Positions 6,601 to 21,716 of a stretch of 64,000 bases of DNA are shown piece by piece. Under the pieces are notes generated by a model. The model saw only the letters and a program-made list of their open reading frames with translations, was not told the DNA's origin and did not search any database. Origin of the DNA: a virus; IMG/VR virus record IMGVR_UViG_3300044859_002163, positions 1-64,000 of that record. One strand, 5' to 3'. Position numbers and translations under genes: made by a program. Position 1 is the stretch's first letter; each line of letters begins with the position of its first letter.

Positions 6601-7031
6601 CTACATCTGTCGCGGAGACTGGCGATGTGACAATTTCCGATACGGGTGTAACATCTATCGCTTCTGGCGTCATCGTAAATGCTGATATAAGCGCTTCTGC
6701 CGAAATTGACCTAGGAAAGCTCGCCGACGTATCAACGAATGCTCAACCGAGCTATTACACGCTTGTGTTGGCTGACAAGAATAAGATTGTTGAAATGGGT
6801 GACAGCGGTGCCCATACACTGACAGTGCCGCCAAACTCATCAGTAGCTTTCCCGGTTGGTTCGCAGATAAACATCCTGCAAACAGGAGTTGGTCGAACAA
6901 CGGTTACTGCTGGGGCTGGAGTAACAATCAATGCATCACCAGGGCTTAAACTACGAGCACAGTGGTCATATGCTACGCTCATCAAGAGAGCAACCGATAC
7001 ATGGGTATTGGTGGGAGACGTTTCGGCATAA
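3690..7031 (+). CDS. Giant tail fibre (1113 aa)
   Basis: The N-terminus MAYKKILFRRDPAASW with LSAGEVGLETDTGKIKIGNG is the head-binding-type module found at the start of many phage fibres. The rest is a mosaic of degenerate repeats: the DTEIGYLDGV...QTQL.AKAP type (three copies), the ADGSVTSGKIADG type, and blocks shared with the fibres at 811 and 23229. The C-terminus has a compact domain ending TWVLVGDVSA. No enzymatic motif is seen. It is most likely a long trimeric side or tail fibre. Its mosaic structure suggests module exchange with the other fibres. Confidence 0.85.
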   Translation: MAYKKILFRRDPAASWTSENPVLSAGEVGLETDTGKIKIGNGSSTWTALSYFVGNLPGATLDALGDVTITSAANGDFLRWNGTAWINDAVNLSTDTVGNYVESLVAGTGVTLTNNSGEGSTPTVAVDTTVIQARVSGVTDTEIGYLDGVTWAIQTQLDAKAPSASPVFTGLVILPANTVSQVHLNDDSVGTNEIIGLSVTTAKLADGSVTSGKIADGAIVDADINASASIAMSKISGLDTALSAKAPIASPTFTGTVTLANDPSSALHAATKQYVDNISSGINFHESVVAATTGNLAGTYDNGTSGAGATITKATNGAIGTIDGASVVVGSRILLKAQTDSKENGIYTVTDVGSVSAPWVVTRATDADNNPAGEMKTGDFCFVTGGSTNAGFGFVNNSATNPIAIGTDNITYTPFNAAQTLTNGSGINLVSNVLSVDTTVIQARVADVSDTEIGYLNGTTSAIQTQLNAKAPLSSPDLTGTPTAPTATSGTNTTQIATTAFVKTAVDGAAITSLGVIGDVAITSAASGDILKWSGTQWVNDSALLAAKANSASPTFTGVVTLPDNTVALGTKTTGDYVASLVAGTGVTLTNNSGETATPTIAIGQAVGTSSSVQFAAVTAPLIGNASTATTLQTARNIAGQPFNGSADISIAPTDLTGVTATATELNYVDGVTSSIQTQLDNKASATASPVITLGGDLSGSATFTNLGNATLTATIASNSVALGADTSGDYVSVITAGTGVTVTGGTGETSTPTIAIGQSVATSASVTFSQVETTGNLIVGGDLSVHGTLTTINETNLAIEDTFIYLNDGSTITNPDLGWVGNYNDGTYRHAGLFRDATDGKFKFFDSYEIEPADPINTAHASYSAAPVVAEVFESTVATGTAPLSVSSSTVVTNLNADLLDGQSGSFYAPVNNASFTGTFSAPSGTITSTMIADGTIVNADIDSSAAIALSKLATSTAGNIIVYNSSGVPTSVAETGDVTISDTGVTSIASGVIVNADISASAEIDLGKLADVSTNAQPSYYTLVLADKNKIVEMGDSGAHTLTVPPNSSVAFPVGSQINILQTGVGRTTVTAGAGVTINASPGLKLRAQWSYATLIKRATDTWVLVGDVSA

Positions 7032-7034
7032 CTT

Positions 7035-7661
7035 ATGGCAACAAAAGATTCAGGCGGTAAAATTCCAGGAGTACCAACGATTGGTACGCCATCATTTGAC
7101 AGCGGAACTGGTATCTCCTCGGTTCCATTTACTGGCCCAACATATACTGGAAAAGGTACGATTAGTTATCGCATAAACGCTAGCACTGGTGAAACCGCAA
7201 CTGGGGGAAGTTCACCAATTGCAATAACCACAACTGCTGGAACTGCTGTTACTTTTACTGTCACATCCATCTCATCAAATGGCGTCGAGTCAAATGCGTC
7301 GTCATCATCAACATCCATAACACCTGGAATCAAACCTGCAACCCCAACAATTGGTGTTTCAGCTGCGGGCAACGCCGCAGCCACCGTAAACTGGACAAAG
7401 GGCAGCAACGGAACGGCCGCAGCTACCGCTGTTACTTTTAGGGTTCAATCGTCTCCATTCACTAGTGAGAAAACTGTAGTAAACGCTAGCAGCATAAGTT
7501 TTACTGGTCTTACAAATGGAGTTGCATACCAATTTAGAGTCAGGGCGGAAAGCGTATATGGCGTCAGTGACTTTTCGGCATATTCAACCGCAGTAACCCC
7601 AGTTGCCCCCCCGTACTTCCCGCCATACTTTCCGCCGTACTTTCCTCCAAGATTTAAGTGA
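7035..7661 (+). CDS. FN3-domain fibre/adhesin with C-terminal PPYF repeats
   Basis: A 208-aa protein with an N-terminal Thr/Ser-rich region and a fibronectin type III-like domain at about 105-190 (motif VNWTKGSNG, then GLTNGVAYQFRVRAES). The last 17 residues are a proline-rich tail of three tandem PPYF units closed by PPRFK. The ATG at 7035 follows the giant fibre by 3 nt. Neighbouring genes immediately downstream encode 2-oxoglutarate oxygenases, several of the prolyl-hydroxylase type, which makes the tail a candidate substrate. FN3 and fibre association are well supported; the modification idea is inference. Confidence 0.8.
   Translation: MATKDSGGKIPGVPTIGTPSFDSGTGISSVPFTGPTYTGKGTISYRINASTGETATGGSSPIAITTTAGTAVTFTVTSISSNGVESNASSSSTSITPGIKPATPTIGVSAAGNAAATVNWTKGSNGTAAATAVTFRVQSSPFTSEKTVVNASSISFTGLTNGVAYQFRVRAESVYGVSDFSAYSTAVTPVAPPYFPPYFPPYFPPRFK
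7609..7652 (+). repeat. 12-bp repeat encoding (PPYF)3-PPRF
   Basis: The unit CC(G/C)CC(G/A)TACTT(C/T) is repeated three times with synonymous variation, then degenerates into PPRF before the stop. The tract encodes the extreme C-terminus of the FN3 protein. Confidence 0.8.
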
Positions 7662-7675: not shown

Positions 7676-8422
7676 GTGAATGCTGACCAATATTCAATCA
7701 GTCAATATTGGGAAAATGGATTCGCCGTAATTAATGGGTTGATTCCTGAAAATAAAATAGATGCATTCATGGGTAAATATAAACCAAAACATGTAGTTCT
7801 TGGAAAAGAAAAAACATCATACGAAACATACATTGAGCGCAACGAATACCTCAGAAGTCAAGAAATACTAGAGATGCTTTGCGGGGATGAAGTAAGTTCG
7901 GTAGTCTCACATTTAAACAAATATTTTGCCCTACACATATCAGAGGCAAGAATAGGTACATCAGGAACAGACTGGCACACCGACTATTTAGAAAAAAATG
8001 CAATTGGTGCAAATGGTTACATCGGTGTGCACATAGCCATGAGCGACGTTGATGAAGGTTGCGGTCCATTTCAGTTGATACCAAAGTCTCATAAGTGGCT
8101 AAAAAATTCAGAAATTATAAACTGGGAAAATTGCAAAAGCAATCCACAACAGTGCTGCGAGTACAATAATGAATTAATTAAGACAAAAGGAATTGAGCCA
8201 TTTGTTTTTATTCCACACAAAGGAGATGTTTTGATTTGGCATGGGAACCTAATGCATAGGGGAAGCCCTGCTGATGAATGGGCCAAAGGCAGGGATGTGT
8301 TGTTCGGTCATTACAGGGCAATGGAAAAAAATGAAATTGAAGCAATAGAGAAAAATAAACCTAGCAGTAGACTCGGGAAGCATAAATCCATGTTTTACGT
8401 AATTAGTGGTAATAATGGGTAA
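7676..8422 (+). CDS. PhyH-family Fe(II)/2-oxoglutarate dioxygenase
   Basis: A 248-aa protein matching the phytanoyl-CoA dioxygenase-like fold: iron ligands His101-x-Asp103 (WHTDYL), distal His194 (NLMHRGS), the PhyH-typical GPFQLIPKSHKW at 130-141, and a C-terminal Arg-rich strand. Such enzymes hydroxylate a substrate carbon, coupled to decarboxylation of 2-oxoglutarate; the substrate here is unknown. The start is GTG: an ATG two bases upstream is followed directly by TGA in its own frame. This is the first gene of the oxygenase island and overlaps the next gene by 8 nt. Confidence 0.85.
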   Translation: MNADQYSISQYWENGFAVINGLIPENKIDAFMGKYKPKHVVLGKEKTSYETYIERNEYLRSQEILEMLCGDEVSSVVSHLNKYFALHISEARIGTSGTDWHTDYLEKNAIGANGYIGVHIAMSDVDEGCGPFQLIPKSHKWLKNSEIINWENCKSNPQQCCEYNNELIKTKGIEPFVFIPHKGDVLIWHGNLMHRGSPADEWAKGRDVLFGHYRAMEKNEIEAIEKNKPSSRLGKHKSMFYVISGNNG

Positions 8423-9236
8423 CATCTCTTACTTGGAGCAGCCTCATTACGAGTTGGGCGACATTGCATTGTTCGACGCGACTACGGGACAAAATGCAGA
8501 TTCTATAAAACTAAATAAAAACTTTTACTTTGAAAAATTCAAGATAGAAGGTTTTATTGGTTTTAAAGAAGCGAGTGTAAGCGAAGAAGAACAAAAAGAA
8601 ATATTTAAATTATTCTGTAAAAATTTTGACATCGTTCCGAACCTTGGTGGATATAGAGAAAACCACAATCTCTCAATAAGTAGAGAGTCTGGCAAGGTTT
8701 CAAGACATAATATTCTCGTGAGCTGGCACTACGAGCACATTGAGAACAACATTGAAACAGCAGCATCATGTTGGAATATGACTAAGTTTGATTGCGATAA
8801 ATCAAATGGAATAACGTTGTTCTGTGATGGGCAGGAGACAATGCATGCATTCAATGAAGAGGAAATTGATTTTTTAAAAAAATGTTTAGTGATTACTAAT
8901 CACAAAAATGAAGAAGATAAAAACTATCGTTCCCCGATAAGAATAAATAAAACAAACAATTCAGAGCTGATAAGGATTGACCCAGCATATATCGTTGAGA
9001 AATTAGTGTCGTTTGATGGAAGAAAGCCAAGCATCACCGAAATATCTAGATATATACAAATTCAAAAGAAATTTGAAAATCTTCTTCTCCCGGGCAGTGG
9101 CTACATTAAGGGTTGGGCATGGTCCCCAGGGGACCTCTTGATAATAGACCTGTTTAGAATGTGTCATGCTGTACTTGGTGGGTTTGAGCCACACGAACGT
9201 GAATTTATTGGGATATTTGGTAAAGTACCTCAATGA
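8415..9236 (+). CDS. TauD/TfdA-like 2-oxoglutarate dioxygenase (HxE type)
   Basis: A 273-aa protein with the signature SWHYEHIEN (His105-x-Glu107; Glu replaces the usual Asp) and distal His251 in MCHAVLGGF, followed by an Arg in HEREFIG. This resembles the TauD/CAS-like superfamily, where HxE occurs in some members. It is clearly paralogous to the minus-strand gene at 18288-19142, which has HWHLEHIEN and MAHAVKTGF. The ATG at 8415 is preferred to the GTG at 8406 because it gives the shorter overlap with the upstream stop. The substrate is unknown. Confidence 0.8.
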   Translation: MGNISYLEQPHYELGDIALFDATTGQNADSIKLNKNFYFEKFKIEGFIGFKEASVSEEEQKEIFKLFCKNFDIVPNLGGYRENHNLSISRESGKVSRHNILVSWHYEHIENNIETAASCWNMTKFDCDKSNGITLFCDGQETMHAFNEEEIDFLKKCLVITNHKNEEDKNYRSPIRINKTNNSELIRIDPAYIVEKLVSFDGRKPSITEISRYIQIQKKFENLLLPGSGYIKGWAWSPGDLLIIDLFRMCHAVLGGFEPHEREFIGIFGKVPQ

Positions 9237-9868
9237 ACAGCGACACATCTCCATGGGGAGTTAAACCTGGATTTTTTGGTTCAAGTAAAGAAAATATCCA
9301 CGTAATAGAAGATTTTATAGACCCTGAAGATGTTTCTAAAATAAATTTATTTGCAAGGTCTATAAAGGAATGGTCAAACCAAGAACCAACAAGCATATAC
9401 GCAGAGGACGGAACATGTCTGTACGATGCAAATTATTGGAACGACCGTCAATGCGGTTATGACATTCTACAGAAAATAAACCCAGAAATATATGAATTGA
9501 TTGATTCCTATATCGAGAAGATGGGCAAGGTAATAAACGAGACGTTTAATTGTGTTGTGTCCACTAGGCCCCCATGCATAATTAGATGGTTTACCGGCAT
9601 ACAACAGGAGCCCCACGCCGACAAACAACTCCCCGATGGTTCGCCCAACCCTTTTACTGATTACGATATAAATGCATTGTTTTATTATAATGAAGATTTT
9701 ACTGGTGGTGAACTTTACTACCCCCAACACGATATGGTGATTAAACCAAAACCTGGTCTTGCCGTTTTTCACCCAGGAGACATAAACTACCTCCATGGAG
9801 TTAGTATGGTTACATCTGGAGAAAGATTTACCACTCCAGCTTTTTATACGATAGAGGAGTTTCTGTGA
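9233..9868 (+). CDS. Prolyl 4-hydroxylase-like Fe(II)/2OG oxygenase
   Basis: A 211-aa protein with the P4Hc layout: IRWF strand, iron ligands His128-Ala-Asp130, FYYNEDFTGGEL at 150-161, distal His188 (NYLHGV) and 2-oxoglutarate-binding Arg198 in SGERF. A Thr follows where the last strand begins. P4Hc enzymes hydroxylate peptidyl proline or, in phages, other targets. The ATGA overlap with the upstream gene implies translational coupling. Confidence 0.88.
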   Translation: MNSDTSPWGVKPGFFGSSKENIHVIEDFIDPEDVSKINLFARSIKEWSNQEPTSIYAEDGTCLYDANYWNDRQCGYDILQKINPEIYELIDSYIEKMGKVINETFNCVVSTRPPCIIRWFTGIQQEPHADKQLPDGSPNPFTDYDINALFYYNEDFTGGELYYPQHDMVIKPKPGLAVFHPGDINYLHGVSMVTSGERFTTPAFYTIEEFL

Positions 9869-10512
9869 TGCACTCACTACATGTAGGCGACCCTAAGTTG
9901 GGCATTATTATTTACAAAAATGCATTACCTAAAGAACTCAATTTGGTTGAACGCTTGGAAAACACAATTGGGACTAGCTCTTTACCGCCGTATATGTGGA
10001 TGGACGCATTGGTGGGTGACGCTGTAAAAATGCCAGAGTACAGGGATTGTGTGGACTGCAAAATGGGAATTGAACATTTGCAAGATTGCCCCCCGCAGTT
10101 TTTGGAAATAAAAAGTATTTACGATGACACAAATCACGGACTCCGTGAATGTTTGGCTGACTATCAAAGCAGATACAACATAAATATGGAATTCATGGAA
10201 TCTATTAATTATGTTCGTTACGGCGTTGGACAGCATTTTGGAATCCACACCGACCATGGTTTTTCTTATAATTGCACTGTTTCCTCAGTTATGTATTTGA
10301 ACGATGAGTATGAAGGTGGGGAGCTTTGGTTTCCTTATTTGGATATTAAGATTAAACCCGAATACGGAGACATCGTTTTTTTCCCTTCAACTTTTATTTA
10401 CGCTCATTCATCCTTGCCAATCATAAGTGGGAAAAAGTATGTAGCAGTAACAATGTTTGACTACAACGATAGAACCCACAAGCCAGAGCACTATATGTAT
10501 GGTCAAGGGTGA
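9868..10512 (+). CDS. Prolyl 4-hydroxylase-like Fe(II)/2OG oxygenase
   Basis: A 214-aa protein with HTD (His127, Asp129), MYLNDEYEGGELWFP, distal His180 (IYAHSS) and SGKKY in place of SGxRY, so a Lys probably takes the 2OG-binding role. The ATG at 9868 has a GAGGAG ribosome-binding site upstream and a TGATG overlap with the preceding gene, which favours it over GTG 9865. An N-terminal Cys pair (DCVDCKMG) is unusual for the family. It is probably a virion- or host-directed hydroxylase. Confidence 0.86.
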   Translation: MHSLHVGDPKLGIIIYKNALPKELNLVERLENTIGTSSLPPYMWMDALVGDAVKMPEYRDCVDCKMGIEHLQDCPPQFLEIKSIYDDTNHGLRECLADYQSRYNINMEFMESINYVRYGVGQHFGIHTDHGFSYNCTVSSVMYLNDEYEGGELWFPYLDIKIKPEYGDIVFFPSTFIYAHSSLPIISGKKYVAVTMFDYNDRTHKPEHYMYGQG

Positions 10513-10536
10513 GCATGTTTTCCTATTTCCGAATGA

Positions 10537-10542
10537 TAGTCT
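10537..10542 (+). promoter_or_regulatory. Candidate leaderless -10 box (TAGTCT)
   Basis: TAGTCT fits TANNNT and lies 6 nt before the GTG at 10549. There is no ribosome-binding site between them. It falls in the 36-nt gap between two island genes. Confidence 0.35.
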
Positions 10543-10548
10543 TCTAGC

Positions 10549-11256
10549 GTGCCAAAGTTTACCCTTACAAGAACAACGCAGAATCCACCTGAAATAAAAC
10601 AATCTCGTATTAAGCGAGAGTGGATGGATAATACACACAACAAACACGCCTATCAATGTTTGCCAATGACATTCGCAAATGTCTACGGATGGGAACTTGT
10701 ACTTCAACAAGATGTAGTCGTCCAATGGGATGGCGGGCATACTGTTCCGACGATTCTTTCTGGCGGTGAATATGAGGGTCGTCAAATCGCCTACGGCGGA
10801 ATAGTTGGAATGGTTTCGTTTTCTACGGGGTGGGCATTTGGAACACCAGATGGGTACGAAACATGGATTGGAGGTTCTCCGAATTACGTGGTTGATGGAG
10901 CATCCGCACTCAGTGCAATAATTCCAAGTAGTTGGTGGCCAGATGAGTTTCAAATGAATTGGATGGTTACCAAGGTCGGAGAGCCTGTTACTTTTAGTGC
11001 TGGAATGCCATTTATGTTCTTTTCAATATTCGATAGCTCTATTCATGAAAATACTGAATTCATCGTGGAAAACTTATGGGATAAACCAGAACTAATGGAT
11101 GCCAGGCAGAAATATGGACAACTAAAAATGACCAACAATAGGGATAACCCATGGACATGGACGAAAGGAATTAGGACAGGATTGGACGCTGATGGCAATA
11201 AGATTGGTCCATCTTTTGTTGGGTTACCGAAACTAAATGAGCCAAACCTGGAGTGA
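10549..11256 (+). CDS. DUF6065-like protein
   Basis: A 235-aa protein with the arrangement of the DUF6065 family: CLPMTFANVYGWELVL near residue 38, a V.W.GG strand, and an aromatic C-terminal half ending NPWTWTKGIRTGLD. The family function is unknown, but it is repeatedly encoded near oxygenase or tail modules in phages and bacteria. The start is GTG. Its position within the oxygenase island suggests involvement in the same modification pathway. Confidence 0.7.
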   Translation: MPKFTLTRTTQNPPEIKQSRIKREWMDNTHNKHAYQCLPMTFANVYGWELVLQQDVVVQWDGGHTVPTILSGGEYEGRQIAYGGIVGMVSFSTGWAFGTPDGYETWIGGSPNYVVDGASALSAIIPSSWWPDEFQMNWMVTKVGEPVTFSAGMPFMFFSIFDSSIHENTEFIVENLWDKPELMDARQKYGQLKMTNNRDNPWTWTKGIRTGLDADGNKIGPSFVGLPKLNEPNLE

Positions 11257-11257
11257 C

Positions 11258-11482
11258 ATGAAACTTGGACAATACGACGAAAAAATTGCAATCAATGAAG
11301 CAGTTGCTTTTTTGTCTAAATCAATAGCAACGCTTTCAATGATTATGGGTATTGACGTTTCTTCATTTAACCCAGAGGAAAAGAATCCGCACAACGAAGG
11401 CGATTCAATGTTCGATTCATACAACGTCCTATGCCAAGAAGTAATTGCCCTAAATAAACTATTGGGTAATCATGATGAATAA
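11258..11482 (+). CDS. Small helical protein, unknown function
   Basis: A 74-aa protein from the ATG at 11258, which has GGAG 4 nt upstream and begins one base after the upstream stop. A longer reading from 11237 would overlap the upstream gene and lacks a ribosome-binding site. The sequence is helical (INEAVAFLSKSIATLSMIMG) with an acidic tail. No family recognised. Confidence 0.55.
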   Translation: MKLGQYDEKIAINEAVAFLSKSIATLSMIMGIDVSSFNPEEKNPHNEGDSMFDSYNVLCQEVIALNKLLGNHDE

Positions 11483-11669
11483 CGAAGAGGACATCAAGAA
11501 TCCTGATATGAGCAGGCGCAAGGGTGAATCAATCACCGATTTACCTGATTGGGATAATGAAGTGATTGAGCTGGACTCTGCTACGGGGATATATTATGTT
11601 GCTGGAAATCCAGTAATCATGTGTCAACTTGTGGCAATGTTTAAAGACGAAGACAAAGAAAATGAATAG
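11472..11669 (+). CDS. Small acidic protein, unknown function
   Basis: A 65-aa protein starting MMNNEEDIKNPDMSRRKGES, with a short beta-like stretch IYYVAGNPVIM and an acidic tail. It overlaps both neighbours by a few bases, as expected for a coupled operon. No family recognised. Confidence 0.5.
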   Translation: MMNNEEDIKNPDMSRRKGESITDLPDWDNEVIELDSATGIYYVAGNPVIMCQLVAMFKDEDKENE

Positions 11670-11955
11670 TCAAAAACTTGAAAAATACTTAAGTGATGAA
11701 GATTTTGAAATTTCATCCAGGAACCTTGCATCACTCCTGTACATACTCGGCTACGGCAAAGAAGAATTCGACGATTTAACCATCGACAACCTTGTGAACC
11801 TAATACGCGATAGATATGTATACAAACACTCATTCACAGAGAACTCAGCTTCGCAGGCATACATCAAAAAACAGAACATAGTATTGGCTAGAGCAGTTAG
11901 ACGTTCGTGGTTTGATGTTCAGTTCGCTTCTCACGAGGCTCTAGAAAATGGCTGA
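11662..11955 (+). CDS. Small helical protein, unknown function
   Basis: A 97-aa protein from the ATG at 11662, which overlaps the upstream stop; the longer GTG start at 11629 lies deep in the upstream gene. It is mainly helical, with LYILGYGKEEFDDL and IKKQNIVLARAVRRSW. It overlaps the next gene by 8 nt. No family recognised. Confidence 0.5.
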   Translation: MNSQKLEKYLSDEDFEISSRNLASLLYILGYGKEEFDDLTIDNLVNLIRDRYVYKHSFTENSASQAYIKKQNIVLARAVRRSWFDVQFASHEALENG

Positions 11956-12694
11956 TAATCAATTTGCACCATACCGAGCGTTTGACTACACAAAGTGGTA
12001 TGGAGATTGGCGTGGTTTTGCAGAAACATCAACGCTTGTAGACGGTCCTGAGTCTGTAGAGATTTCAAAATACTTATTTGAAACTATTGGCGTAGATAGA
12101 AGAAACATCGCTACTGGCGGAGCTTCTGATTTCGAATTTGTCATCCATTATCCGAGGCCAAATTTGGCTCAATCGTATGGCCAGTCTCAGTGGATGCCCA
12201 TTCTTGTGGTGATGATGCTCATGGACATATCTCCAAAGCACAAAGTCTTAGCACTTTCGGGTGGTCCTGATAGGTTTAAATTGAAACAGTTTCAAGATGT
12301 TTTTAAATCTAAAATATATTTTTTAAATAACAAAAAATTAGCACTCTATGAAAAATTTCAAAAAGTTAATACTCCAATTGATTACGAGGTTGTAACGACG
12401 AGCGGTCTCGAAAGTAATAAGGACATTAAGTTTGACATGATTCTGGGTTGGTCTCAGGATATGGAAAACCCATTTACAGGACCAAATTTTTACATTGATA
12501 GATTGAACGACAACGGTATTTTAATTGTGCAAAATTCTTCTGACAGCGCGTTTTTGTACCAAAACGAAACGCATGCATCCCCGGTTTGGTCGTATCATGA
12601 GGAAATGAAGTCCAGAACTGACTGTCGGACTTATCACATCCCGATTTTCTATGGCCTGACAATAGTCATAAAGGGTGGTGAGTATGCTGATTAA
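11948..12694 (+). CDS. Methyltransferase-like Rossmann protein (tentative)
   Basis: A 248-aa protein. A beta strand KVLALSGGPDRF at about 98-109 and FDMILGWSQDM at about 161 followed by FYIDRLNDNGILIVQ resemble motifs I, IV and the post-IV helix of class I SAM-dependent methyltransferases. The glycine-rich GxGxG is absent, so cofactor binding is uncertain. It lies between small ORFs and an oxygenase gene, all overlapping. A catalytically altered methyltransferase or another Rossmann enzyme are both possible. Confidence 0.45.
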   Translation: MADNQFAPYRAFDYTKWYGDWRGFAETSTLVDGPESVEISKYLFETIGVDRRNIATGGASDFEFVIHYPRPNLAQSYGQSQWMPILVVMMLMDISPKHKVLALSGGPDRFKLKQFQDVFKSKIYFLNNKKLALYEKFQKVNTPIDYEVVTTSGLESNKDIKFDMILGWSQDMENPFTGPNFYIDRLNDNGILIVQNSSDSAFLYQNETHASPVWSYHEEMKSRTDCRTYHIPIFYGLTIVIKGGEYAD

Positions 12695-13358
12695 AGATAA
12701 CGCAATAGACGCAAAAACTTACCAGGAAATGCTCGAGGATAAGGATTTTTATCCAGAATCAATGGGCAGTGAAGACAGGATTGCATCAGAGTTAAATTCA
12801 TATCACTACGAGCAAGCGAGCTGCTTTGCGCCATATATGTTCTGGGATGGTTGGTGGAGGTCTCCAGCAAACACACCAAGGAAAAGGGTGGTTCAAGGTA
12901 TTTGGGAGAATAATCTTCCTTGCGATAAAGAAGAGATACTTGGAATCGAATACTGGACAAGAACCTACCTCCCAGGCCAGTACCTAGATGTCCATGTTGA
13001 CGAAGACACTTTTTTATATGCCGACTCAAAAGTATTTAGTGGACCGCTTATGGGTTCAATTTATTATGGATTAGACAACAGTGAAGGAGGATTTGTTGAA
13101 ATTTACAACAAAGCCATTCTTGTTGACGGAACTCCAATGGCGATTGAGGCGGAGAATATCAATGCATTACTGGTACCGATAGAAGAAAGGGAACGAATCG
13201 CCTATCGTGGGAATCGGTTAATAATATTCGATGCTGGACATGTTGTACATGGCACTACGCCAGCAAAAAGTGGGATTAGACAAGTTATGGTTACCAATGT
13301 TTGGCATAGGAACAACCCGCCAACAGCACTAAAACTTGGTGAATTCTTTTATGAGTAA
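12684..13358 (+). CDS. Fe(II)/2OG oxygenase
   Basis: A 224-aa protein with His104-Val-Asp106 in LDVHVDEDTF, YYGLDNSEGGFVEIY, distal His186 or His189 in GHVVHGTTP, and Arg199 in SGIRQVMV. The layout fits the P4H/2OG-FeII_Oxy fold, with an insertion of about 25 residues between the strands that carry the GG turn and the distal His. The ATG at 12684 overlaps the upstream stop and is preferred to the GTG at 12675. Confidence 0.8.
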   Translation: MLIKDNAIDAKTYQEMLEDKDFYPESMGSEDRIASELNSYHYEQASCFAPYMFWDGWWRSPANTPRKRVVQGIWENNLPCDKEEILGIEYWTRTYLPGQYLDVHVDEDTFLYADSKVFSGPLMGSIYYGLDNSEGGFVEIYNKAILVDGTPMAIEAENINALLVPIEERERIAYRGNRLIIFDAGHVVHGTTPAKSGIRQVMVTNVWHRNNPPTALKLGEFFYE

Positions 13359-13950
13359 TGCTGAAATAGTAAACTTACTAACAGTCAATGTTTTTAAAAC
13401 AAAAATAAAAAATGTGAATAACAACAAACTTGTAGAAGAAATAAAAGATTGCTCTGGAGAAATAGGGCAGCAATTCTTAAGCAAAGAAAACCACACATAT
13501 TACGAGGATAAAAGATATCCATTTGGACAGCCAGAATCAGAAAAGTTGATAAACACACTCAGCGAAGCAGTTAATTCAATAGTTGGTGTAAAAATGGTTC
13601 TTTCTGAGATATGGACTTTGACTTTAAATTACGGTCAATCCGTAGCTGCTCATTCGCACAAGTCGAACACGCACATGCATGATGAGGAGTTTTTCTCAAT
13701 AGCGTATTATCCAAGTGCTCCAGAAGGGAGCGCTGACCTTATATTCATGGTTGATGCATGCAATACTTTAGAAAAAAGTGTTTCAATAAAACCAGAGACA
13801 GGTGGGCTTGTGGTGTTTAATTCTTACTTAATGCACATGACTAATAGACATCAAAACAAAAACACAGAAAGAATAGTCGTTAGTGCTAACTTTAAGCCCG
13901 AAAAACCATCAAGCATGGAAACCCAGGACTGGAGCGCTTACTCAAGATGA
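13351..13950 (+). CDS. 2OG-Fe(II) oxygenase, PF13759-like
   Basis: A 199-aa protein. W-T-L-x-L-N-Y-G-Q followed by HSH at 101-103, an MHD at 109-111, then SIAYYPSAPEGSADLIF and distal His162 in SYLMHMT with Arg174 in TERIVVSANF. This is the pattern of the putative 2OG-FeII_Oxy_5 family seen in many cyanophages. Which of the two proximal His sites binds iron cannot be decided by eye. The ATG at 13351 overlaps the upstream stop; an upstream TTG is rejected. Confidence 0.75.
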   Translation: MSNAEIVNLLTVNVFKTKIKNVNNNKLVEEIKDCSGEIGQQFLSKENHTYYEDKRYPFGQPESEKLINTLSEAVNSIVGVKMVLSEIWTLTLNYGQSVAAHSHKSNTHMHDEEFFSIAYYPSAPEGSADLIFMVDACNTLEKSVSIKPETGGLVVFNSYLMHMTNRHQNKNTERIVVSANFKPEKPSSMETQDWSAYSR

Positions 13951-14801
13951 GCAAAATCAATGCAGAACACCTGGGTGGCGGAACTGTGCTCTTCAAAAAT
14001 GTACTTGATGTGCCAAAAGCTGAATTAATAGAGCATCTAAGCGAGATTAAAGAAAATTGGAGAAAAGAAAATTTTACAATTATTTATGATGACAGCGGAA
14101 ATGCATCACATGCAGTGAACAAGGGTGATTTTATTTACGACCTAGAGTCAATGAGAACTGCACCAGTTAGAATACAAAGCCTTACTCACCCATTTTTTCG
14201 GGAATGCGACGATGCCGTTTACCAGTGCCTTCTTGAATACATAGAGTTATTCCCAGCAGTTCTGCAGTGTCTGTGGTGGCGCTCAACCGGTCATGTCCTA
14301 TGTTACGACGAGGGGGCGAGTCTTGGCCTGCATTGTGACAACGATGTTAACTATAGGTACGGAGCAATACCAAAAACAGAACATGCAACAAGAAACGTCC
14401 TTTCTGCGCTTGTGTATATAAACGACTCAACGGATGATGAATCTGTAGAGCATTCATTTTCTGGTGGTCATATGTCAATCCCGTATTTTGGGATAGATAT
14501 TACTCCTGCTTCTGGTGACATATTGCTGATGCCAGCCGGATATCTTGGCGCTCATGAAATACATGAGATAACGCGCGGTACTAGATATTCATATCTGAGC
14601 TGGTTCGCGCAGGGTTCAGAGGACAAAGAAAAAGGCGTATCCCCGATTGTCCCGGACGAGTATTACAAGAACGAGGGTCAGTGGTGGTTAACCTCAATAA
14701 TCGAGGATTACGATAGGCACATATCTTCTAAACATGAGCACATTAATGGAGTAAATGAAAAGCTTTTTAACTTTAGGACCAGAGAAAAAGACCACATATA
14801 A
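13947..14801 (+). CDS. Prolyl-hydroxylase-like Fe(II)/2OG oxygenase
   Basis: A 284-aa protein with His129-Cys-Asp131 (GLHCDNDV), distal His203 (GAHEIHE), and Arg213 in RGTRYSYLSWF. The N-terminal HLGGGTVLFKN is shared with the genes at 16654 and 17517, and all three have W-x-x-x-G-H-(V/I) before the iron site. They form a tandem paralogous trio within the island. ATGA overlap with the upstream gene. The C-terminal 60 residues are helical and specific to this copy. Confidence 0.85.
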   Translation: MSKINAEHLGGGTVLFKNVLDVPKAELIEHLSEIKENWRKENFTIIYDDSGNASHAVNKGDFIYDLESMRTAPVRIQSLTHPFFRECDDAVYQCLLEYIELFPAVLQCLWWRSTGHVLCYDEGASLGLHCDNDVNYRYGAIPKTEHATRNVLSALVYINDSTDDESVEHSFSGGHMSIPYFGIDITPASGDILLMPAGYLGAHEIHEITRGTRYSYLSWFAQGSEDKEKGVSPIVPDEYYKNEGQWWLTSIIEDYDRHISSKHEHINGVNEKLFNFRTREKDHI

Positions 14802-14831
14802 ATCGGGTTACTAAGCCCCATGGTGGTGTAG

Positions 14832-14837
14832 TACCAT
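14832..14837 (+). promoter_or_regulatory. Candidate leaderless -10 box (TACCAT)
   Basis: TACCAT fits TANNNT and ends 6 nt before the ATG at 14844. The 42-nt gap contains no ribosome-binding site. Confidence 0.35.
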
Positions 14838-14843
14838 TGTTTC

Positions 14844-15953
14844 ATGACGGTAACAAAGGATACTTTTGGCCATTTAAAGGGAAATGTAAAAATTTATAAT
14901 TTTGATGCAATTGTTGACGCCCCATCTTCGGACCCAAATGAAATTCATCACATAGTTCAAAGCAATATTGATTCAATATTCACATGGGACTACTCGCGCC
15001 AAAGAGAAGGATTAAAAAAGATTTACGAAAAGGCAAAGTCAAGTCAGTGGGATGGTGCAACCGCCCTTGACTGGTCTACGGACGTGGATGTTGAAAAATC
15101 CGTAGCCGAAGATTACATGAACTTCGGAACAAGTAGGGATATGTCTGTTTATAAGGGTAGCCCTGTTGAGCACTGGGGGCAATCCGAGTGGCTTGAATTC
15201 GGCGTTCAAAGTAGAAGATGGATGATTTCACAGTTTATACATGGAGAGCAGGCTGCTCTTATGTGCTCTGCAAAAATATCAATGACATGTCCTTGGTACG
15301 ACGGAAAGTTGTATGCATCAACGCAGGTGATGGACGAGGCCAGGCATACAGAAGTTTTTTCAAGGTACGCAAGTGAAAAACTCGGTGGGGTGCTTCCATT
15401 CAACTGGCATATTCAAAGTCTGGTTGATGACACTATTTCGGACAGCCGCTGGGACATGACATATCTCGGGATGCAGATTATGGTTGAAGGTTTAGGGTTG
15501 GCATCAATGGCCTACATGCGTGAGTTAACAGCCGAGCCACTTCTAAAACAACTCCTAAGGAATGTAATGTCCGACGAAGCAAGACACATATCTTTTGGGG
15601 TTCTTACACTAAGGGAAGTATATTCAGAAATGACAGATTCAGAAATAATGGAGAGACAGGAATTTGCATTTGAGGCTACGCTTAAGCTCGGTGAAAGAAT
15701 GCTTCAGCAGGAAGTGTTTGAGAAGATGGGTGTAAAAACCAAGGACATAGCCCCATACCTACTCAACGACCCAGCCCAAGCGTGGATTAGAAGGATGCTT
15801 TCAGCTAAGATAGTCCCAAATGTTTCAAAGTTAGGTTTATTGGATAGAAATGGGAAATGGTTGAGGAGAAAGTACGAAGAAATGGGAATTATAGAATTTG
15901 AAAATATAGGCGAATCCGAAGAGGACTTCGTGGAATTCATCCATAAATTTTAA
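14844..15953 (+). CDS. Ferritin-like di-iron oxygenase
   Basis: A 369-aa protein with a complete ferritin-superfamily di-iron set: Glu135 (HGEQAAL), Glu165-x-x-His168 (MDEARHTEV), Glu215 (VEGLGLA) and Glu245-x-x-His248 (SDEARHISF). Such proteins act as oxygenases, oxidases or ribonucleotide-reductase-like enzymes. Length and helix pattern are closer to the R2/AurF-like oxygenases than to storage ferritins. The gene stands between two prolyl-hydroxylase-like genes and a methyltransferase, so an oxidative tailoring role is likely. The substrate is unknown. Confidence 0.82.
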   Translation: MTVTKDTFGHLKGNVKIYNFDAIVDAPSSDPNEIHHIVQSNIDSIFTWDYSRQREGLKKIYEKAKSSQWDGATALDWSTDVDVEKSVAEDYMNFGTSRDMSVYKGSPVEHWGQSEWLEFGVQSRRWMISQFIHGEQAALMCSAKISMTCPWYDGKLYASTQVMDEARHTEVFSRYASEKLGGVLPFNWHIQSLVDDTISDSRWDMTYLGMQIMVEGLGLASMAYMRELTAEPLLKQLLRNVMSDEARHISFGVLTLREVYSEMTDSEIMERQEFAFEATLKLGERMLQQEVFEKMGVKTKDIAPYLLNDPAQAWIRRMLSAKIVPNVSKLGLLDRNGKWLRRKYEEMGIIEFENIGESEEDFVEFIHKF

Positions 15954-15958
15954 TTACC

Positions 15959-16657
15959 ATGAAAATACCGGACGAAGTTGAGAGTCTATACATTGCCCTG
16001 GAAATGTATCAGGAAGACGGAGATGAATTCGTTGCAGCATTTTACGATAGTCAAGCTTCATCGTATGATGCTTTTATTGATAAAACAAATTATGCCCTAG
16101 CGGAAAATGTAGTAAAAATAGCTATTCAAAAATTAAAACATTTGAATTCATCCAACTGTATTGATATTGGATGCGGAACTGGAGCAATTGGAATCAATCT
16201 GCTAAAAAATCAATCCAACATCGGCCTTGATGGAATTGATATTTCTGAAGAAATGATTAAGACGACAAGCGAAAAATTCGAACAAATTAAAAAATTATCA
16301 AGACAGTCTCTTAGGCCAACGAATGAATCCATTTATGAAAATTTGTTTATTGGAAACATAAAAGAAGAAAATAAAGAGCTTTACAATAAATATGATGCAG
16401 CTCTGAGCTCAGGTGTTTTTACTAAACTCCATCTTGGGCCAGAGAATATAATAAACGTACTTTCCACGCTGAGGTCCGGGGGCTTGGCGATTATTAGTGT
16501 GAATTCCTCGGCTTACTCTGAACAGGGATACGAAGAAGAGGTGCGTAATATGTCCAATAAAAATATTATAAAAAATGTTGAGATTATAACCGTCAGGCAA
16601 TGGGGAGATGACAGGTATACGGAGACAGCAGAGGTTATTGTTATGGAAAAGGTATGA
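15959..16657 (+). CDS. Class I SAM-dependent methyltransferase
   Basis: A 232-aa protein. Motif I is CIDIGCGTGAIGINLL at 67-82, the acidic end of strand beta2 is GLDGIDIS near 94, and strand beta4 is KYDAALSSGVF. These are the hallmarks of a Methyltransf_25-type fold. The substrate cannot be inferred. Located 5 nt after the di-iron enzyme and overlapping the next oxygenase by 4 nt, it probably works in the same tailoring pathway. Confidence 0.85.
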   Translation: MKIPDEVESLYIALEMYQEDGDEFVAAFYDSQASSYDAFIDKTNYALAENVVKIAIQKLKHLNSSNCIDIGCGTGAIGINLLKNQSNIGLDGIDISEEMIKTTSEKFEQIKKLSRQSLRPTNESIYENLFIGNIKEENKELYNKYDAALSSGVFTKLHLGPENIINVLSTLRSGGLAIISVNSSAYSEQGYEEEVRNMSNKNIIKNVEIITVRQWGDDRYTETAEVIVMEKV

Positions 16658-17520
16658 ACTATTTGTTCAATGATGTCGATGCAAAACATCTTGGTGGTGG
16701 TGTGGTCTTATTCGAGAATGCAATAACATTTGATTCTGAATGGGCTTGTTCATTTGCTGAAAAACAAGTTAGTCGTGAACGTTCAGAAATGTACACAGAG
16801 GCAATTGACCCGGAGACAGGGGCAATTTTATTCCTGAACAGGAGCGGATACTATTTTGACGCAGATGGGGTCAACGAGATGCCAAGACGTGCATCTAGAA
16901 TACATGGAGTAGAGGATGAAGAAATTAAAACTTTCCTACACTTCATTGAAAAATCGAAAGATTTATATCTATTAAAGTATTTCGTTCTTTTTCCACTTGC
17001 CTACAAGAATGTCTGGTGGAAGGTAAAAGGCCATATTGTTTCATACTCGGTAGAACATGGTGGAACTTTTCTTGGACAACACTCCGATACTAGTGCCGAT
17101 TACACGTATGGCATGCCTGAACCATCCGACCAGATTGCTACAAGGAATACAATTTCTTGTATCGTATATTTAAACGAAGATTTCAGTGGTGGAGAGCATT
17201 ATTTTAACTACTTGGACATCGAATATAAACCAAAAACCGGAGACATAATGATGTTTCCTTCAAATTACATTGCTGCTCATGAAGTGAAACCGGTTACCAG
17301 CGGGAATAGGTACACCTATCTTGGTTGGTACTCCCACGGTAGCCCAAATGTTGAACTAAACGAAGTAATAATAGACCCTATAGAAAATCCTCAAATTGCC
17401 AATCTTTCAACAAACGTTTATATGCCGAATTTACGAAAAGATTTTAAAAATTATTTGGAAACACTTGGTGCAAAGGCACCGGCCCTTGCCCTGTCTTTGG
17501 TCGAAAGCATGCATTCGTGA
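16654..17520 (+). CDS. Prolyl-hydroxylase-like Fe(II)/2OG oxygenase
   Basis: A 288-aa protein with His143-Ser-Asp145 (GQHSDTS), VYLNEDFSGGEHYF, distal His209 (AAHEVKP) and Arg219 (SGNRYTY). The N-terminal KHLGGGVVLFEN and the WWKVKGHIV strand identify it as a paralogue of the genes at 13947 and 17517. The C-terminal extension is helical. ATGA overlap with the methyltransferase gene. Confidence 0.88.
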   Translation: MNYLFNDVDAKHLGGGVVLFENAITFDSEWACSFAEKQVSRERSEMYTEAIDPETGAILFLNRSGYYFDADGVNEMPRRASRIHGVEDEEIKTFLHFIEKSKDLYLLKYFVLFPLAYKNVWWKVKGHIVSYSVEHGGTFLGQHSDTSADYTYGMPEPSDQIATRNTISCIVYLNEDFSGGEHYFNYLDIEYKPKTGDIMMFPSNYIAAHEVKPVTSGNRYTYLGWYSHGSPNVELNEVIIDPIENPQIANLSTNVYMPNLRKDFKNYLETLGAKAPALALSLVESMHS

Positions 17521-18299
17521 ATGTTCGTCATCTTGGAAATGGAATTTTAGCTATTGACGGATTGCTGGATTTGGATAACAAGAGGAGTCTTGCGTGGTTG
17601 GAAAGAATTGAGGCAGGTTCTAGTCCGCAGGCCTACATTGAGGTGGACGATTCAGTAGAGCTAAATCAGGGTGGGTACGAATTTTCAAAAAATTCAGTTG
17701 ATACCAGACCTACACGCTTTGATAACTTTCAATACGATGGCAAGACAGAAGAGGATGATTTAATAAGAAAATTAATTGACGATGCCATATACTCTGCCGT
17801 TGTCCTGTACGCAAGAGTTTTTCCTGTTTCTATTTCTGAATTAACATGGAGAACAAATGGGCATATTGCAAGGTATGAACCCGGGCAGTACATAGGTTCA
17901 CATTCTGATTGTGGGCTTCCATATGATGGGGATACCTATAACCCGCTTCACATTTTCCCGCTATACAACACACTCACGACGACGGTTGCACTAAACGATA
18001 ACTACGATGGCGGGGAGTTAAAGTTTAAAACATGGGGGATTACGCACAAGGGTAAAGTTGGTTCGGTGACAGTATACCCTTCATCGTACATTGGTGCACA
18101 CGAGATACTTCCAGTTACCTCTGGAGTCAGGTATTCGTATCTGTCATGGTTTTGTCATGGATTAGAGCACTTTGATTACGACTCAATGAGAAAAGAAGAT
18201 GCAGATTTTAAATGGCTTGTTAATTTAAAAAAAGATGTTGAAAAAGTTGAAGGTCTTGATTTCGGGTACGTACCAGTTGGAACACTGTTAGGTATTTAG
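17517..18299 (+). CDS. Prolyl-hydroxylase-like Fe(II)/2OG oxygenase
   Basis: A 260-aa protein with His129-Ser-Asp131 (GSHSDCG), LNDNYDGGELKF, distal His195 (GAHEILP) and Arg205 (SGVRYSY). It begins with GTG overlapping the upstream stop; the nearby ATG is out of frame. Last plus-strand gene of the island. Its 3' end overlaps the convergent minus-strand gene by 12 nt, with no terminator visible between them. Confidence 0.88.
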   Translation: MNVRHLGNGILAIDGLLDLDNKRSLAWLERIEAGSSPQAYIEVDDSVELNQGGYEFSKNSVDTRPTRFDNFQYDGKTEEDDLIRKLIDDAIYSAVVLYARVFPVSISELTWRTNGHIARYEPGQYIGSHSDCGLPYDGDTYNPLHIFPLYNTLTTTVALNDNYDGGELKFKTWGITHKGKVGSVTVYPSSYIGAHEILPVTSGVRYSYLSWFCHGLEHFDYDSMRKEDADFKWLVNLKKDVEKVEGLDFGYVPVGTLLGI

Positions 18300-19142
18300 T
18301 GGATTTTTTATTCTTTTTTCATATCCATCACCGAAGGCCCAGTACCCAACAAAATTTCGTTGATTATGTTTAAAACCTGTTTTTACAGCATGAGCCATTT
18401 GTGTTAAATCTGGAATTACAAGGTCACCAACAGACCATTCCCACCAAAACTGAATTGACTTATCTTTCCATATTTTTTCAAGAAACCACCAATTAATTTT
18501 GTTCATCATTTCTTGATGCTCACGGGTTGGTTCTGTACTGTCAAATGACACAACCGTCTGAACGTGTCCAAGCGGGCAGATGCGAATTATTTTCTTTCCT
18601 GTCACCTCGTGAGTAATCACGGCCCTTCTATCCGAGGAATCCCATCCCATCTCCCACCCGGTATTTTCGGTGCATTTTATTTCCACCCGATTCAAGAAGT
18701 CAATATATTCATCTGGTGTGGAGAGATTCTCGGAGGAACAACTCACAAAACCAGTAGAGCCATTATTTGGGCTTGAGACATTATTCTTCAACATATTCCA
18801 AGCAGCAGCAACCTGTGGAACATCGTTTTCTATGTGCTCTAAGTGCCAATGTATTAATATTTCATCATCAAGTGGGTGAGGTCCAAATTGATTTCTCAGC
18901 TCAAGAGACTTGGAATGATTTTCTTCATAACGAAGCCAGATTTTAAGTTCGTTTTTATTTGATGAATTTGGATTAAATCCAAGATTGTCTCCAAGAAGCG
19001 AGAGTATTTCATATTGTTCTTCTTCCGATGCGTTGAGCTTTTCAAATACAAGAATTCCATTTTTTCTATAAAATTCTGCAAAGTAATCTATATTCTTTAC
19101 TATTTCTGCGAATGTGGTTGAAAATATGGAATCGCTATACAC
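18288..19142 (-). CDS. TauD/TfdA-like 2-oxoglutarate dioxygenase (HxE type)
   Basis: A 284-aa protein with His100-Leu-Glu102 in IHWHLEHIEN, AAAWNMLKNN shortly after, distal His251 in MAHAVKTGF and an Arg in QRNFVGYW. It is a paralogue of the plus-strand protein at 8415 and shares the rare HxE facial triad. The overlap of 8 nt with the upstream radical SAM gene suggests one operon running 21716 to 18288. The substrate is unknown. Confidence 0.8.
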   Translation of the reverse strand: MYSDSIFSTTFAEIVKNIDYFAEFYRKNGILVFEKLNASEEEQYEILSLLGDNLGFNPNSSNKNELKIWLRYEENHSKSLELRNQFGPHPLDDEILIHWHLEHIENDVPQVAAAWNMLKNNVSSPNNGSTGFVSCSSENLSTPDEYIDFLNRVEIKCTENTGWEMGWDSSDRRAVITHEVTGKKIIRICPLGHVQTVVSFDSTEPTREHQEMMNKINWWFLEKIWKDKSIQFWWEWSVGDLVIPDLTQMAHAVKTGFKHNQRNFVGYWAFGDGYEKRIKNPLNT

Positions 19143-20175
19143 GCTGGTCCGCCCATACAGAATGTATGCACCTAGTACATATCTCGCTGAATGATGAATT
19201 AATGGTGTTTACATGTTTGTCGCTAAACCAAATCTCACTTAATTTAGAATCGCGCATATTCCCAAATACATATTCATATTTAAAATCATTACAGCATAAG
19301 AATGTTTCTGCTTTGCTGTTTATGTTTAGCCATCCGAAAGTTCGACCTTTTGGACCATAACTGCAATCGGTTACGTATTTTTTATTGTTTTTATTAATTA
19401 AGTGCAAATTTGAAATAATCGAAGACTCTTGCAACAGTCCTGCCCTATCGTACAAATCTGTTTCTGGATGAAACCTTAAGGACGGGAATAAAAGTTTTGC
19501 TTGTTTTATTTGCACATCCAGTTCCCCATCAGTTGTACGTAAATCAATATTTGGGAAATTGCTTAAGCTCGATATAATTCCTCCGTTTTCAGAAAGAGAA
19601 TCATAGGTAGGGCAATTCACACCGATAGAGAAAGAATTTTTCTGTGTGAAATATACGAGGTTGGCTTCAGCATATTTCAGGTTTGATATTAGTGAATCAA
19701 AAAGAAACTCGTTCATTCCGGTTCTTTCCGACCACAGGCTTCTTTCAAAAGCTGGAATGTTTAAATATATTCCACTGATTGAATCCTTATACTTATTTAT
19801 AATGTCTATTTTTTCTGGGGTTAAATTTACCCCATTTGAAAGTATGAGCATTTTAAGTTTAAATTTTGAAAGAATAATTAAAAATTCCTCAAAATGCTTA
19901 TAGAGTAAAATTTCATTATAGTGAGCAGTGTGTATCTGCCTTAATCTTTTCGAAATAATTCCGTTATCTTTTGATTTTTCAGAGTCAATATCAAAAAGTA
20001 TATTTTCCAAAACGTCAACATCCATATGCCTGGAGTAGTCAAGCATATTCCCATGAGTACTAACAGGGCAAAACCAGCACTTTGCATTGCAATACCCAAA
20101 TGGGTCTATTTGAACATCTGATATTTGTGTGTTTTTTAATTTATCTAATATTGAATTATGTAAATCACTATTCAC
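19135..20175 (-). CDS. Radical SAM protein with SPASM-like C-terminus
   Basis: A 346-aa protein. The CxxxCxxC cluster motif is Cys29, Cys33, Cys36 in GYCNAKCWFCP, binding the 4Fe-4S cluster that cleaves S-adenosylmethionine. The C-terminus has FLCCNDF and ICTRCIHSVW, a reduced SPASM-like set for an auxiliary cluster. SPASM enzymes often modify peptides or proteins. Encoded between a 2OG oxygenase and a TauD-like enzyme, both overlapping by 8 nt. A peptide- or sugar-tailoring role is possible; the exact reaction is not inferable. Confidence 0.85.
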   Translation of the reverse strand: MNSDLHNSILDKLKNTQISDVQIDPFGYCNAKCWFCPVSTHGNMLDYSRHMDVDVLENILFDIDSEKSKDNGIISKRLRQIHTAHYNEILLYKHFEEFLIILSKFKLKMLILSNGVNLTPEKIDIINKYKDSISGIYLNIPAFERSLWSERTGMNEFLFDSLISNLKYAEANLVYFTQKNSFSIGVNCPTYDSLSENGGIISSLSNFPNIDLRTTDGELDVQIKQAKLLFPSLRFHPETDLYDRAGLLQESSIISNLHLINKNNKKYVTDCSYGPKGRTFGWLNINSKAETFLCCNDFKYEYVFGNMRDSKLSEIWFSDKHVNTINSSFSEICTRCIHSVWADQRV

Positions 20176-20725
20176 AATTTTCCCAAAATGTCAAGAATGT
20201 AAATCTTTTTCCAGAATCAACCATTTCTACTTGGTGAATATGTTTTTGTGATGGGAAAAAAATTGCATCGCCAGCACCCAGCCTTGCAAAAGCTTTGTCT
20301 CCAGGAAAGTTAACCTCGCCTCCCGTGTAGTCATCGGACATTGATAAAATTCCTGAATAGGCAAGATTCTCTCCATAGTTATACCCGGAATGAGTTGTCT
20401 TTGAGGAGTCGCTATGTAATGGATGTCTCTGTCCGGTTGACTGAATTTTTATAGAAGTCCTCTTGTCGGGCAGAGATATTGGGGAAAATGTATTTCTAAA
20501 AATATTAAACAAACATTTTTCAAGCTTTGAAATTACGTATTTAGAAATATCTATATTGCTTTCAGATATCTGTATAGTCTGAAATTCACCAGATATTTTT
20601 CCATCGTTATGAATTTCACCAGAATTCAAGATGTAGAAATCAAGTATTTCTCTTATTTCTTCTTTATCAAACAAGCCACTACAAAGGAATATGTCAGAGC
20701 CGTCTCTTCCAATCATTTCAGTCAT
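20168..20725 (-). CDS. Fe(II)/2OG oxygenase, P4H-like
   Basis: A 185-aa protein with His104-Ser-Asp106 (PLHSDSS), LSMSDDYTGGEVNFP, distal His164 (KHIHQV) and Arg174 (SGKRFTF). The start at 20725 makes an ATGACTGA overlap with the upstream glycosyltransferase stop and is preferred to the more upstream ATG at 20740. Its coupling to a GT60-like enzyme is notable: in Dictyostelium a prolyl hydroxylase and a GT60 enzyme act in sequence on Skp1. Confidence 0.86.
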   Translation of the reverse strand: MTEMIGRDGSDIFLCSGLFDKEEIREILDFYILNSGEIHNDGKISGEFQTIQISESNIDISKYVISKLEKCLFNIFRNTFSPISLPDKRTSIKIQSTGQRHPLHSDSSKTTHSGYNYGENLAYSGILSMSDDYTGGEVNFPGDKAFARLGAGDAIFFPSQKHIHQVEMVDSGKRFTFLTFWENCE

Positions 20726-21716
20726 AAAACTCAATTCCACTTATATTCCTATAATCAAATCCCAGTTTATCTACATATTCATTGTATGTTTCCATATCAG
20801 TGGCCCCATAATAGCCTAGCTCGCCTGCTGTAAGTATGTTCTTATAATAGTCAATAAAGTGTAGATAGGTAGTGCATGCAATATCTGCATTGAAGATGTT
20901 ATGCCAAACATCCCGTGCAATATCGGAATCCAGGTATTCATCTGTTTTTTCAAGGGTGTGGATAATAATATCGTTTATTGCATAGATTGAATATCCGCGT
21001 GAAAAAGCTCTCATCGGGATAGTGTGCTCTTCTCCGAAAAATTGTATTCTCGGGTCCGGCATGACTTCTGTAAAGAATTTCCATGTTGAAAATATAAATC
21101 CACCAGCAACAAGATAATGCTCTATGAAATCTTCACTTATAAAATTATGCTCTATTTTTGATGAAATTGAAGTTCGATATTCATTTGAAAATTTTGTATT
21201 TGTAAATTTTTCTATTGCATCAATAATTTGAAATTCTCTTAACTTTTCAACGCTTGGAAGATTCGTATCATAACTAATAACCCCATTTTTATTTTTTGTG
21301 AAAGCAGATGGGCGTTGAGAAATAATTATATTCTTGTTTATGCATTCAAGTTTTTTATACCAGCTGATAAGTTTTGAATCCCAAGATTCGACAAATCGGC
21401 TGTGTGCATCAACCTGAAGGATGTATTTCTCACCGCCCCACAACCATAGTGATTCACATCTAGCAATTCCAATCCCACGAATTAGTGGGTGGCTTATATT
21501 TATAGTTTTTACATTTTTAAAATTTGAAAAATCTTCAAAACTTCCAATTGTTTTTTGATTGCAAATTCCGATTCTTACACCATCTGGATTATCTGCTTTT
21601 TCATAAATATTTTTTACTGTATTTAGCAGGTCTTCTTCATTTAAAGAAGCTATTGATACAAATATTCTATTATTGCTATTTAGTTGATTTTTCCAATTTG
21701 TAGAATAAGTGTCCAT
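20718..21716 (-). CDS. GT60-like protein N-acetylglucosaminyltransferase
   Basis: A 332-aa protein resembling the GlcNAc family (PF11397, CAZy GT60). An N-terminal RIFVSIASLNE strand is followed by RGIGIARCESLWLWGGEKY and then LQVDAHSRFVESWD at 100-113, where D-A-H corresponds to the metal-binding DxH. The eukaryotic member attaches GlcNAc to hydroxyproline of Skp1. Here it heads an operon with a P4H-like oxygenase, a radical SAM protein and a TauD-like enzyme. The acceptor is unknown; fibre proteins or host surface molecules are candidates. Confidence 0.75.
   Translation of the reverse strand: MDTYSTNWKNQLNSNNRIFVSIASLNEEDLLNTVKNIYEKADNPDGVRIGICNQKTIGSFEDFSNFKNVKTINISHPLIRGIGIARCESLWLWGGEKYILQVDAHSRFVESWDSKLISWYKKLECINKNIIISQRPSAFTKNKNGVISYDTNLPSVEKLREFQIIDAIEKFTNTKFSNEYRTSISSKIEHNFISEDFIEHYLVAGGFIFSTWKFFTEVMPDPRIQFFGEEHTIPMRAFSRGYSIYAINDIIIHTLEKTDEYLDSDIARDVWHNIFNADIACTTYLHFIDYYKNILTAGELGYYGATDMETYNEYVDKLGFDYRNISGIEFYD

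Follow-up and report, generated by a model that had tools for sequence, protein, structure and literature searches.

What would a phage do with eleven Fe(II)/2-oxoglutarate (2OG) oxygenase genes packed into 13 kb of its genome? Such an island lies at positions 7676–20740 of the stretch analysed here (hereafter the window), which comprises the first 64,000 nucleotides of the 68,955-bp IMG/VR virus record IMGVR_UViG_3300044859_002163 from a lake phage. An initial annotation had proposed a biosynthetic or modification pathway rather than isolated auxiliary genes. Our analysis retained the coordinated modification module and disfavoured a small-molecule pathway: the intact genes overlap, are conserved together and are linked to the gene of a tail protein that has aromatic-proline repeats at its end, a likely substrate that had first been missed. 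Because this gene lies immediately upstream of the oxygenases, we favour protein modification, and we consider it fairly probable that with this cassette the phage hydroxylates a virion protein after translation, an activity of which we infer both the catalysis and the substrate.

All eleven open reading frames (ORFs) were present and uninterrupted, with the ends initially reported, nine on the plus strand (listed as 7676, 8415, 9233, 9868, 12684, 13351, 13947, 16654 and 17517) and two on the minus strand (18288 and 20168); our starts differ from these by a few codons (8406 for 8415, 12675 for 12684, 13336 for 13351), which is immaterial. Numbering the genes of the locus g01 to g20, Pfam profiles identified a PhyH-type enzyme (g01, 7676–8422), two TauD-type enzymes with an HxE motif (g02, 8406–9236, and g17, 18288–19142 on the minus strand), a 2OG-FeII_Oxy_5 protein (g11, 13336–13950) and members of 2OG-FeII_Oxy_3 (g03, 9233–9868; g04, 9865–10512; g10, 12675–13358; g12, 13947–14801; g15, 16654–17520; g16, 17517–18299; and g19, 20168–20740 on the minus strand). 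Eight of the eleven passed the Pfam cut-off, with g03, g10 and g19 slightly under it; g03 rose above it in a genome-level search, g10 was recognised as a 2OG oxygenase by its fold (AlphaFold2, AF2, and Foldseek), and g19 stayed slightly below. The HxD/E...H...R/K motif is full in ten of them and near-complete in g11, whose atypical first metal motif reads H-S-H where HxD is expected. The genes form two convergent operons, 7676–18299 on the plus strand and 21716–18288 on the minus strand, meeting at 18288–18299, and neighbours overlap by 4–23 bases at many junctions, mostly by 4 bp (9233/9236, 9865/9868, 13947/13950, 16654/16657, 17517/17520). Catalytic residues were invariant in the aligned relatives of g03, g04, g10 and the g12/g15/g16 families. 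The ratio of nonsynonymous to synonymous substitution rates (dN/dS) was 0.06–0.075 for the three genes with measurable dS, the others being left out because dS was saturated in most, and points to purifying selection. Gene decay, which the initial annotation had named as grounds against its reading, is therefore rejected on the strength of these frames, residues and ratios. The oxygenase density of the island exceeds chance: it reaches 8.4 genes per 10 kb, and none occurred in the 911 kb surrounding the tail sheath of related phages (0/80 sheath loci).

Directly upstream of the first oxygenase, positions 7035–7661 (plus strand) encode an FN3-domain tail protein (PHROG tail fibre J / minor tail), which we propose as the substrate. 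It closes with aromatic-proline repeats (YFPPYFPPYFPP), in the form (YFPP)3-RFK; the repeat and its RFK C-terminus (PPYFPPYFPPYFPPRFK) occupy 7610–7660. The equivalent gene of relatives carries 3 to about 20 [Y/F]FPP units and closes mostly with xFK, with FF[A/G/S]PP[A/G] as an alternative unit in some of them. Two non-homologous carriers bear the repeat, an FN3 type (n = 70) and a type of about 60 residues (n = 49), and the association with oxygenases holds for both. This second carrier, found in four loci and others, looks PASTA-like by eye and had no Pfam match. Since the units differ in synonymous codons, the peptide, and not the DNA, appears to be under conservation. In five relatives an intein/Hint-like domain comes after the repeat, whose end it might release or attach via self-cleavage. 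A collagen-like fibre was also considered as substrate and is not favoured, because the GAT repeats at the start of the window contain no proline.

The system is marked by g05 (10549–11256, plus strand), which matches DUF6065 (PF19541) at 145.6 bits against a cut-off of 26.6. Comparative genomics, proposed with the initial annotation as a check for co-conservation, showed this set of genes to be present in many diverged phages: the cassette was found in hundreds of related viral contigs and the DUF6065 marker in at least 580 viral stretches, while a scan with the di-iron protein of the island (g13) retrieved 39 relatives, the majority with large portions of the cassette in a rearranged gene order. 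Among the 32 DUF6065 loci with sufficient flank on both sides (hereafter full loci; orthologues by best hit), g03, g04, DUF6065 and a g12-type gene were each found in 32/32, g15 in 31/32 and g10 in 24/32, and all 32 held 6–13 oxygenases.

The link to the repeat was seen in samples gathered independently of it. When DUF6065 loci were collected without reference to repeats and at least 4.5 kb of upstream sequence was required (n = 41), a repeat gene lay 1.2–7.7 kb upstream on the same strand in 39. Likewise, among 31 phage records picked by sheath, di-iron or cyanophage homology, the repeat occurred in 12/12 DUF6065-positive versus 0/19 DUF6065-negative records. At 60% identity, the DUF6065 proteins as a whole fell into 16 groups, 15 of them with the repeat; as many of these groups came from the repeat scan, it is the two former tests that carry weight, loci from one collection having shared ancestry. 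Starting from the repeat, oxygenases were present at 89 of the 120 listed repeat loci versus 10 of 120 control (PT)n loci (Fisher p = 5e-27), with densities of 3.2 and 0.10 per 10 kb, respectively. In 62 of 64 loci the oxygenase nearest to the repeat gene lay on its downstream side, at a distance not significantly different from that of random genes (p about 0.18); as oxygenases occur throughout, information comes from the side alone (62:2). Cellular genomes almost lack the repeat: at the DNA level, a three-unit pattern was detected in at least 120 stretches of viral contigs versus 13 in 257 Gb of genomes, and three of the 12 genomes behind these 13 stretches encode DUF6065, on contigs that bring together DUF6065, oxygenases and repeat.

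By sequence and model comparison, the nearest relatives of the conserved oxygenases are prolyl 3- and 4-hydroxylases, for g03 and g04 by profile and for g10 by predicted fold. Profile matches of g03 included human prolyl 3-hydroxylase 1 (9e-10), a Bacillus prolyl 4-hydroxylase (4e-8) and the lysyl hydroxylase LH3, and those nearest to g04 were the prolyl 4-hydroxylases (P4H) of Bacillus and PBCV-1. No sequence match was obtained for g10 in the profile search; the PDB neighbours of its AF2 model (pLDDT 91) were a Pseudomonas P4H, PHD2 and an algal P4H with a Ser-Pro peptide. The paralogues g12, g15 and g16 were closest to PKHD/PiuC.

The other genes of the island appear more variable. The initial annotation had placed a di-iron enzyme, a radical S-adenosylmethionine (SAM) enzyme and a methyltransferase amid the oxygenases; all are present, as accessories and not as the core of a pathway. 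The ferritin-like di-iron oxygenase g13 (14844–15953, plus strand; all six metal ligands invariant) stands next to the class I methyltransferase g14 (15959–16657, plus strand) in most loci having g13, and the two constitute a separable passenger module, since the di-iron gene is found in only 3/32 full cassettes and both genes also occur in phage records without PF13640 oxygenase or DUF6065. The radical SAM-SPASM enzyme g18 (19135–20175, minus strand) is an accessory because only some relatives have it. The same distribution was observed for g20 (20718–21716, minus strand), an N-acetylglucosamine (GlcNAc)-type glycosyltransferase of PF11397 (Pfam, PHROG) adjoining the minus operon; its family presumably includes the Gnt1 enzymes, and g20 may transfer a sugar to hydroxylated residues. 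Three small ORFs (g06–g08, 11237–11955, plus strand) recur in relatives, and g09 (11948–12694, plus strand), without family match and possibly Rossmann/methyltransferase-like by inspection, has best-hit homologues in 20/32 full loci (median identity 28%). Glutathione-peroxidase-like genes recur in related cassettes (four listed loci and many DUF6065 loci); none was found in the window. Upstream of the repeat gene lies a 1113-aa tail fibre with an N-terminal Mtd_N domain (3690–7031, plus strand).

The following sequence of events could unite these elements. A tail protein with an aromatic-proline tail is synthesised, as seen at the gene level. Then g03, g04 and g10, followed by the PKHD-like g12, g15 and g16, would with fair probability hydroxylate the prolines of the repeat, and perhaps its aromatic residues, using O2, 2OG and Fe(II); they would act on the translated protein, either ahead of virion assembly or in its course. 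DUF6065 might tentatively be seen as a substrate-holding or assembly factor. More speculatively, the PhyH, TauD, radical SAM, methyltransferase and GlcNAc-transferase enzymes, which vary between phages, could further decorate the hydroxylated residues. This would yield an extended, soluble tail tip, rich in hydroxyproline and of variable chemistry, that binds the host surface, a role we infer from the FN3/tail-fibre context and from the neighbouring Mtd_N fibre. We give even chances to the broader proposal that this is a widespread phage system, not described before, in which at least six hydroxylases and DUF6065 make an adhesive tip, heavily hydroxylated and possibly also glycosylated, out of the repeat tail, that is, an oxygen-dependent maturation of the receptor-binding structure of the virion.

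Several observations weigh against hydroxylation of the repeat tail. Enzyme family is a poor predictor of substrate, with small-molecule enzymes among the PKHD/PiuC and TauD/PhyH types. Proximity alone is weak evidence, since cargo often accumulates in the tail-fibre region. The repeat of the window has only three units despite eleven oxygenases, and about 26% of repeat loci had no oxygenase in the available stretch, partly because the stretches end. The dUTPase-like beta-clip fold of DUF6065 (E = 2.5e-4, TM-score about 0.65 to the target) says nothing about hydroxylation, and in alphaproteobacteria 13 of 14 DUF6065 loci had no 2OG gene within 8 kb, the remaining one showing a PhyH hit, which led us to reject a tie between DUF6065 and oxygenases in bacteria. 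These points leave room for other readings. The oxygenases, glycosyltransferase, methyltransferase and radical SAM enzyme might instead act on glycans, lipids or amino acids, the cassette being cargo beside the tail fibres; TauD and PhyH types mostly have small-molecule substrates, the cassettes of relatives are rearranged and mixed with sugar-type enzymes, and the 2OG genes of cyanophage S-SCSM2R lie among glycosyltransferases. We nevertheless hold such host-surface or small-molecule modification to be unlikely, as it leaves unexplained the co-occurrence of DUF6065 and repeat (12/12, 39/41), the downstream position of the oxygenase in 62/64 loci and the closeness of g03, g04 and g10 to peptidyl prolyl hydroxylases.

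The abundance of aromatic residues in the repeat, equal to that of proline, and the glutathione-peroxidase-like genes of related cassettes would also fit a tail whose modification is mainly crosslinking or the hydroxylation of aromatic residues, while the oxygenases supply precursors or give protection from oxidation; this appears improbable to us, given that the core conserved enzymes are prolyl-hydroxylase-like and that no peroxidase gene turned up in the window. Hypermodification of DNA bases or a function in nucleotide metabolism finds an echo in the fold match of DUF6065 to dUTPases and in the PHROG names "DNA endonuclease" or "DNA endonuclease V" attached to three oxygenases. These labels cover the same 2OG domain and look like annotation carry-over, none of the eleven oxygenases matched a base-hydroxylase family, and their nearest solved structures are protein hydroxylases, which makes this reading very improbable. 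We attach equally little credence to a reprogramming of host metabolism through the turnover of 2OG to succinate without specific substrate, a published proposal for T4-like cyanophages (PMC3037559): it would agree with the many oxygenase copies, but bulk turnover needs neither eleven diverged, selected and order-conserved enzymes nor a conserved repeat protein.

Compared with known systems, a high number of 2OG genes alone is not new, and the initial statement that phages commonly carry one to a few is incomplete: T4-like cyanophages hold up to five (PMC3037559), and cyanophage S-SCSM1 has 24, whose functions were not specifically investigated according to its authors (PMC9602691). Like the window phage, S-SCSM1 and its relative S-SCSM2R are myoviruses with many diverse PF13640, PF13759 and PhyH genes; unlike the island, S-SCSM2R has neither DUF6065 nor aromatic-proline repeat, and its 2OG genes lie dispersed between genes for photosynthesis and for sugars. 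The P4H of Bacillus, PBCV-1 and algae and human prolyl 3-hydroxylase 1 share the H, D, H and R/K residues with g03, g04 and g10; to our knowledge, however, known prolyl hydroxylases come singly or in small numbers, and not in islands of 6–13 beside one phage tail gene. The combination of a repeat tail, adjacent oxygenases and a radical SAM-SPASM enzyme also recalls clusters for ribosomally synthesised and post-translationally modified peptides, but the repeat carriers are folded tail domains and not short leader peptides. For Skp1 of Dictyostelium, a prolyl hydroxylase acts first and glycosylation starting with Gnt1 follows (PMC3515798). The window likewise has a PF11397 transferase beside its oxygenases, whereas in Skp1 GlcNAc is added to the hydroxyproline of a single site in a cytosolic protein, and here the tail is repetitive and the transferase limited to some relatives. 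Hydroxyproline-rich proteins of the Chlamydomonas mastigoneme type (PMC11015965) are repetitive, extended, proline-rich hydroxylase substrates as proposed here, and differ by the aromatic-aromatic-Pro-Pro unit, the phage origin, the many enzymes per substrate and the lack of homology. In principle, the proposed tail tip would resemble mussel adhesive repeats or the hydroxyproline-rich proteins of plants and algae.

The source of the island is an uncultivated myovirus with a genome of ~160 kb: the record encodes sheath, large terminase and portal proteins of contractile-tail phages, and a 160,449-bp contig belongs to the same species (di-iron and sheath proteins 100% identical). WhiB genes, restricted to actinobacteria in the controls of our search, number three in this contig and are present in 15/26 related records, which makes an actinobacterial host likely. 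The closest isolate sheaths (33–37% identity) were those of Gordonia, Brevibacterium and Arthrobacter phages. The window also encodes a PAPS reductase-like protein (41387–42532, minus strand) inside the structural gene region, and a giant polyvalent protein in a single 3563-aa ORF (51671–62362, plus strand) with matches to prohead protease S78, UvrD-like helicase, sigma-70 region 4, ArdC N-terminal, zincin polyvalent metallopeptidase and WYL domains.

Beyond these phages, DUF6065 was detected in 29 of 240 sampled alphaproteobacterial genomes, mostly without oxygenase neighbours; bacterial DUF6065 fusion proteins suggested by long open frames were dropped once the loci were read. A second phage clade, about 25% identical to the DUF6065 of the window, occurs with repeats and oxygenases in five loci (including L135:9934-10635), and two genomes contain both clades. 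No homologue of DUF6065 or of the di-iron protein was found in isolated phages at E 1e-5, and the literature searched, mostly open-access and whose silence is no proof, held no description of DUF6065 or of FFPP/YFPP phage repeats.

Viral 2OG oxygenases have long been counted without a substrate. A specific, physically linked candidate is now present, and a peptide of a dozen residues is enough for a direct test of the question. If our interpretation is true, phages employ many enzymes simultaneously to hydroxylate tail proteins of their own, and virion maturation in lake actinobacterial phages would be tied to oxygen, 2OG and iron. It would also provide a first context for the DUF6065 family, and possibly reveal a new class of virion maturation system.

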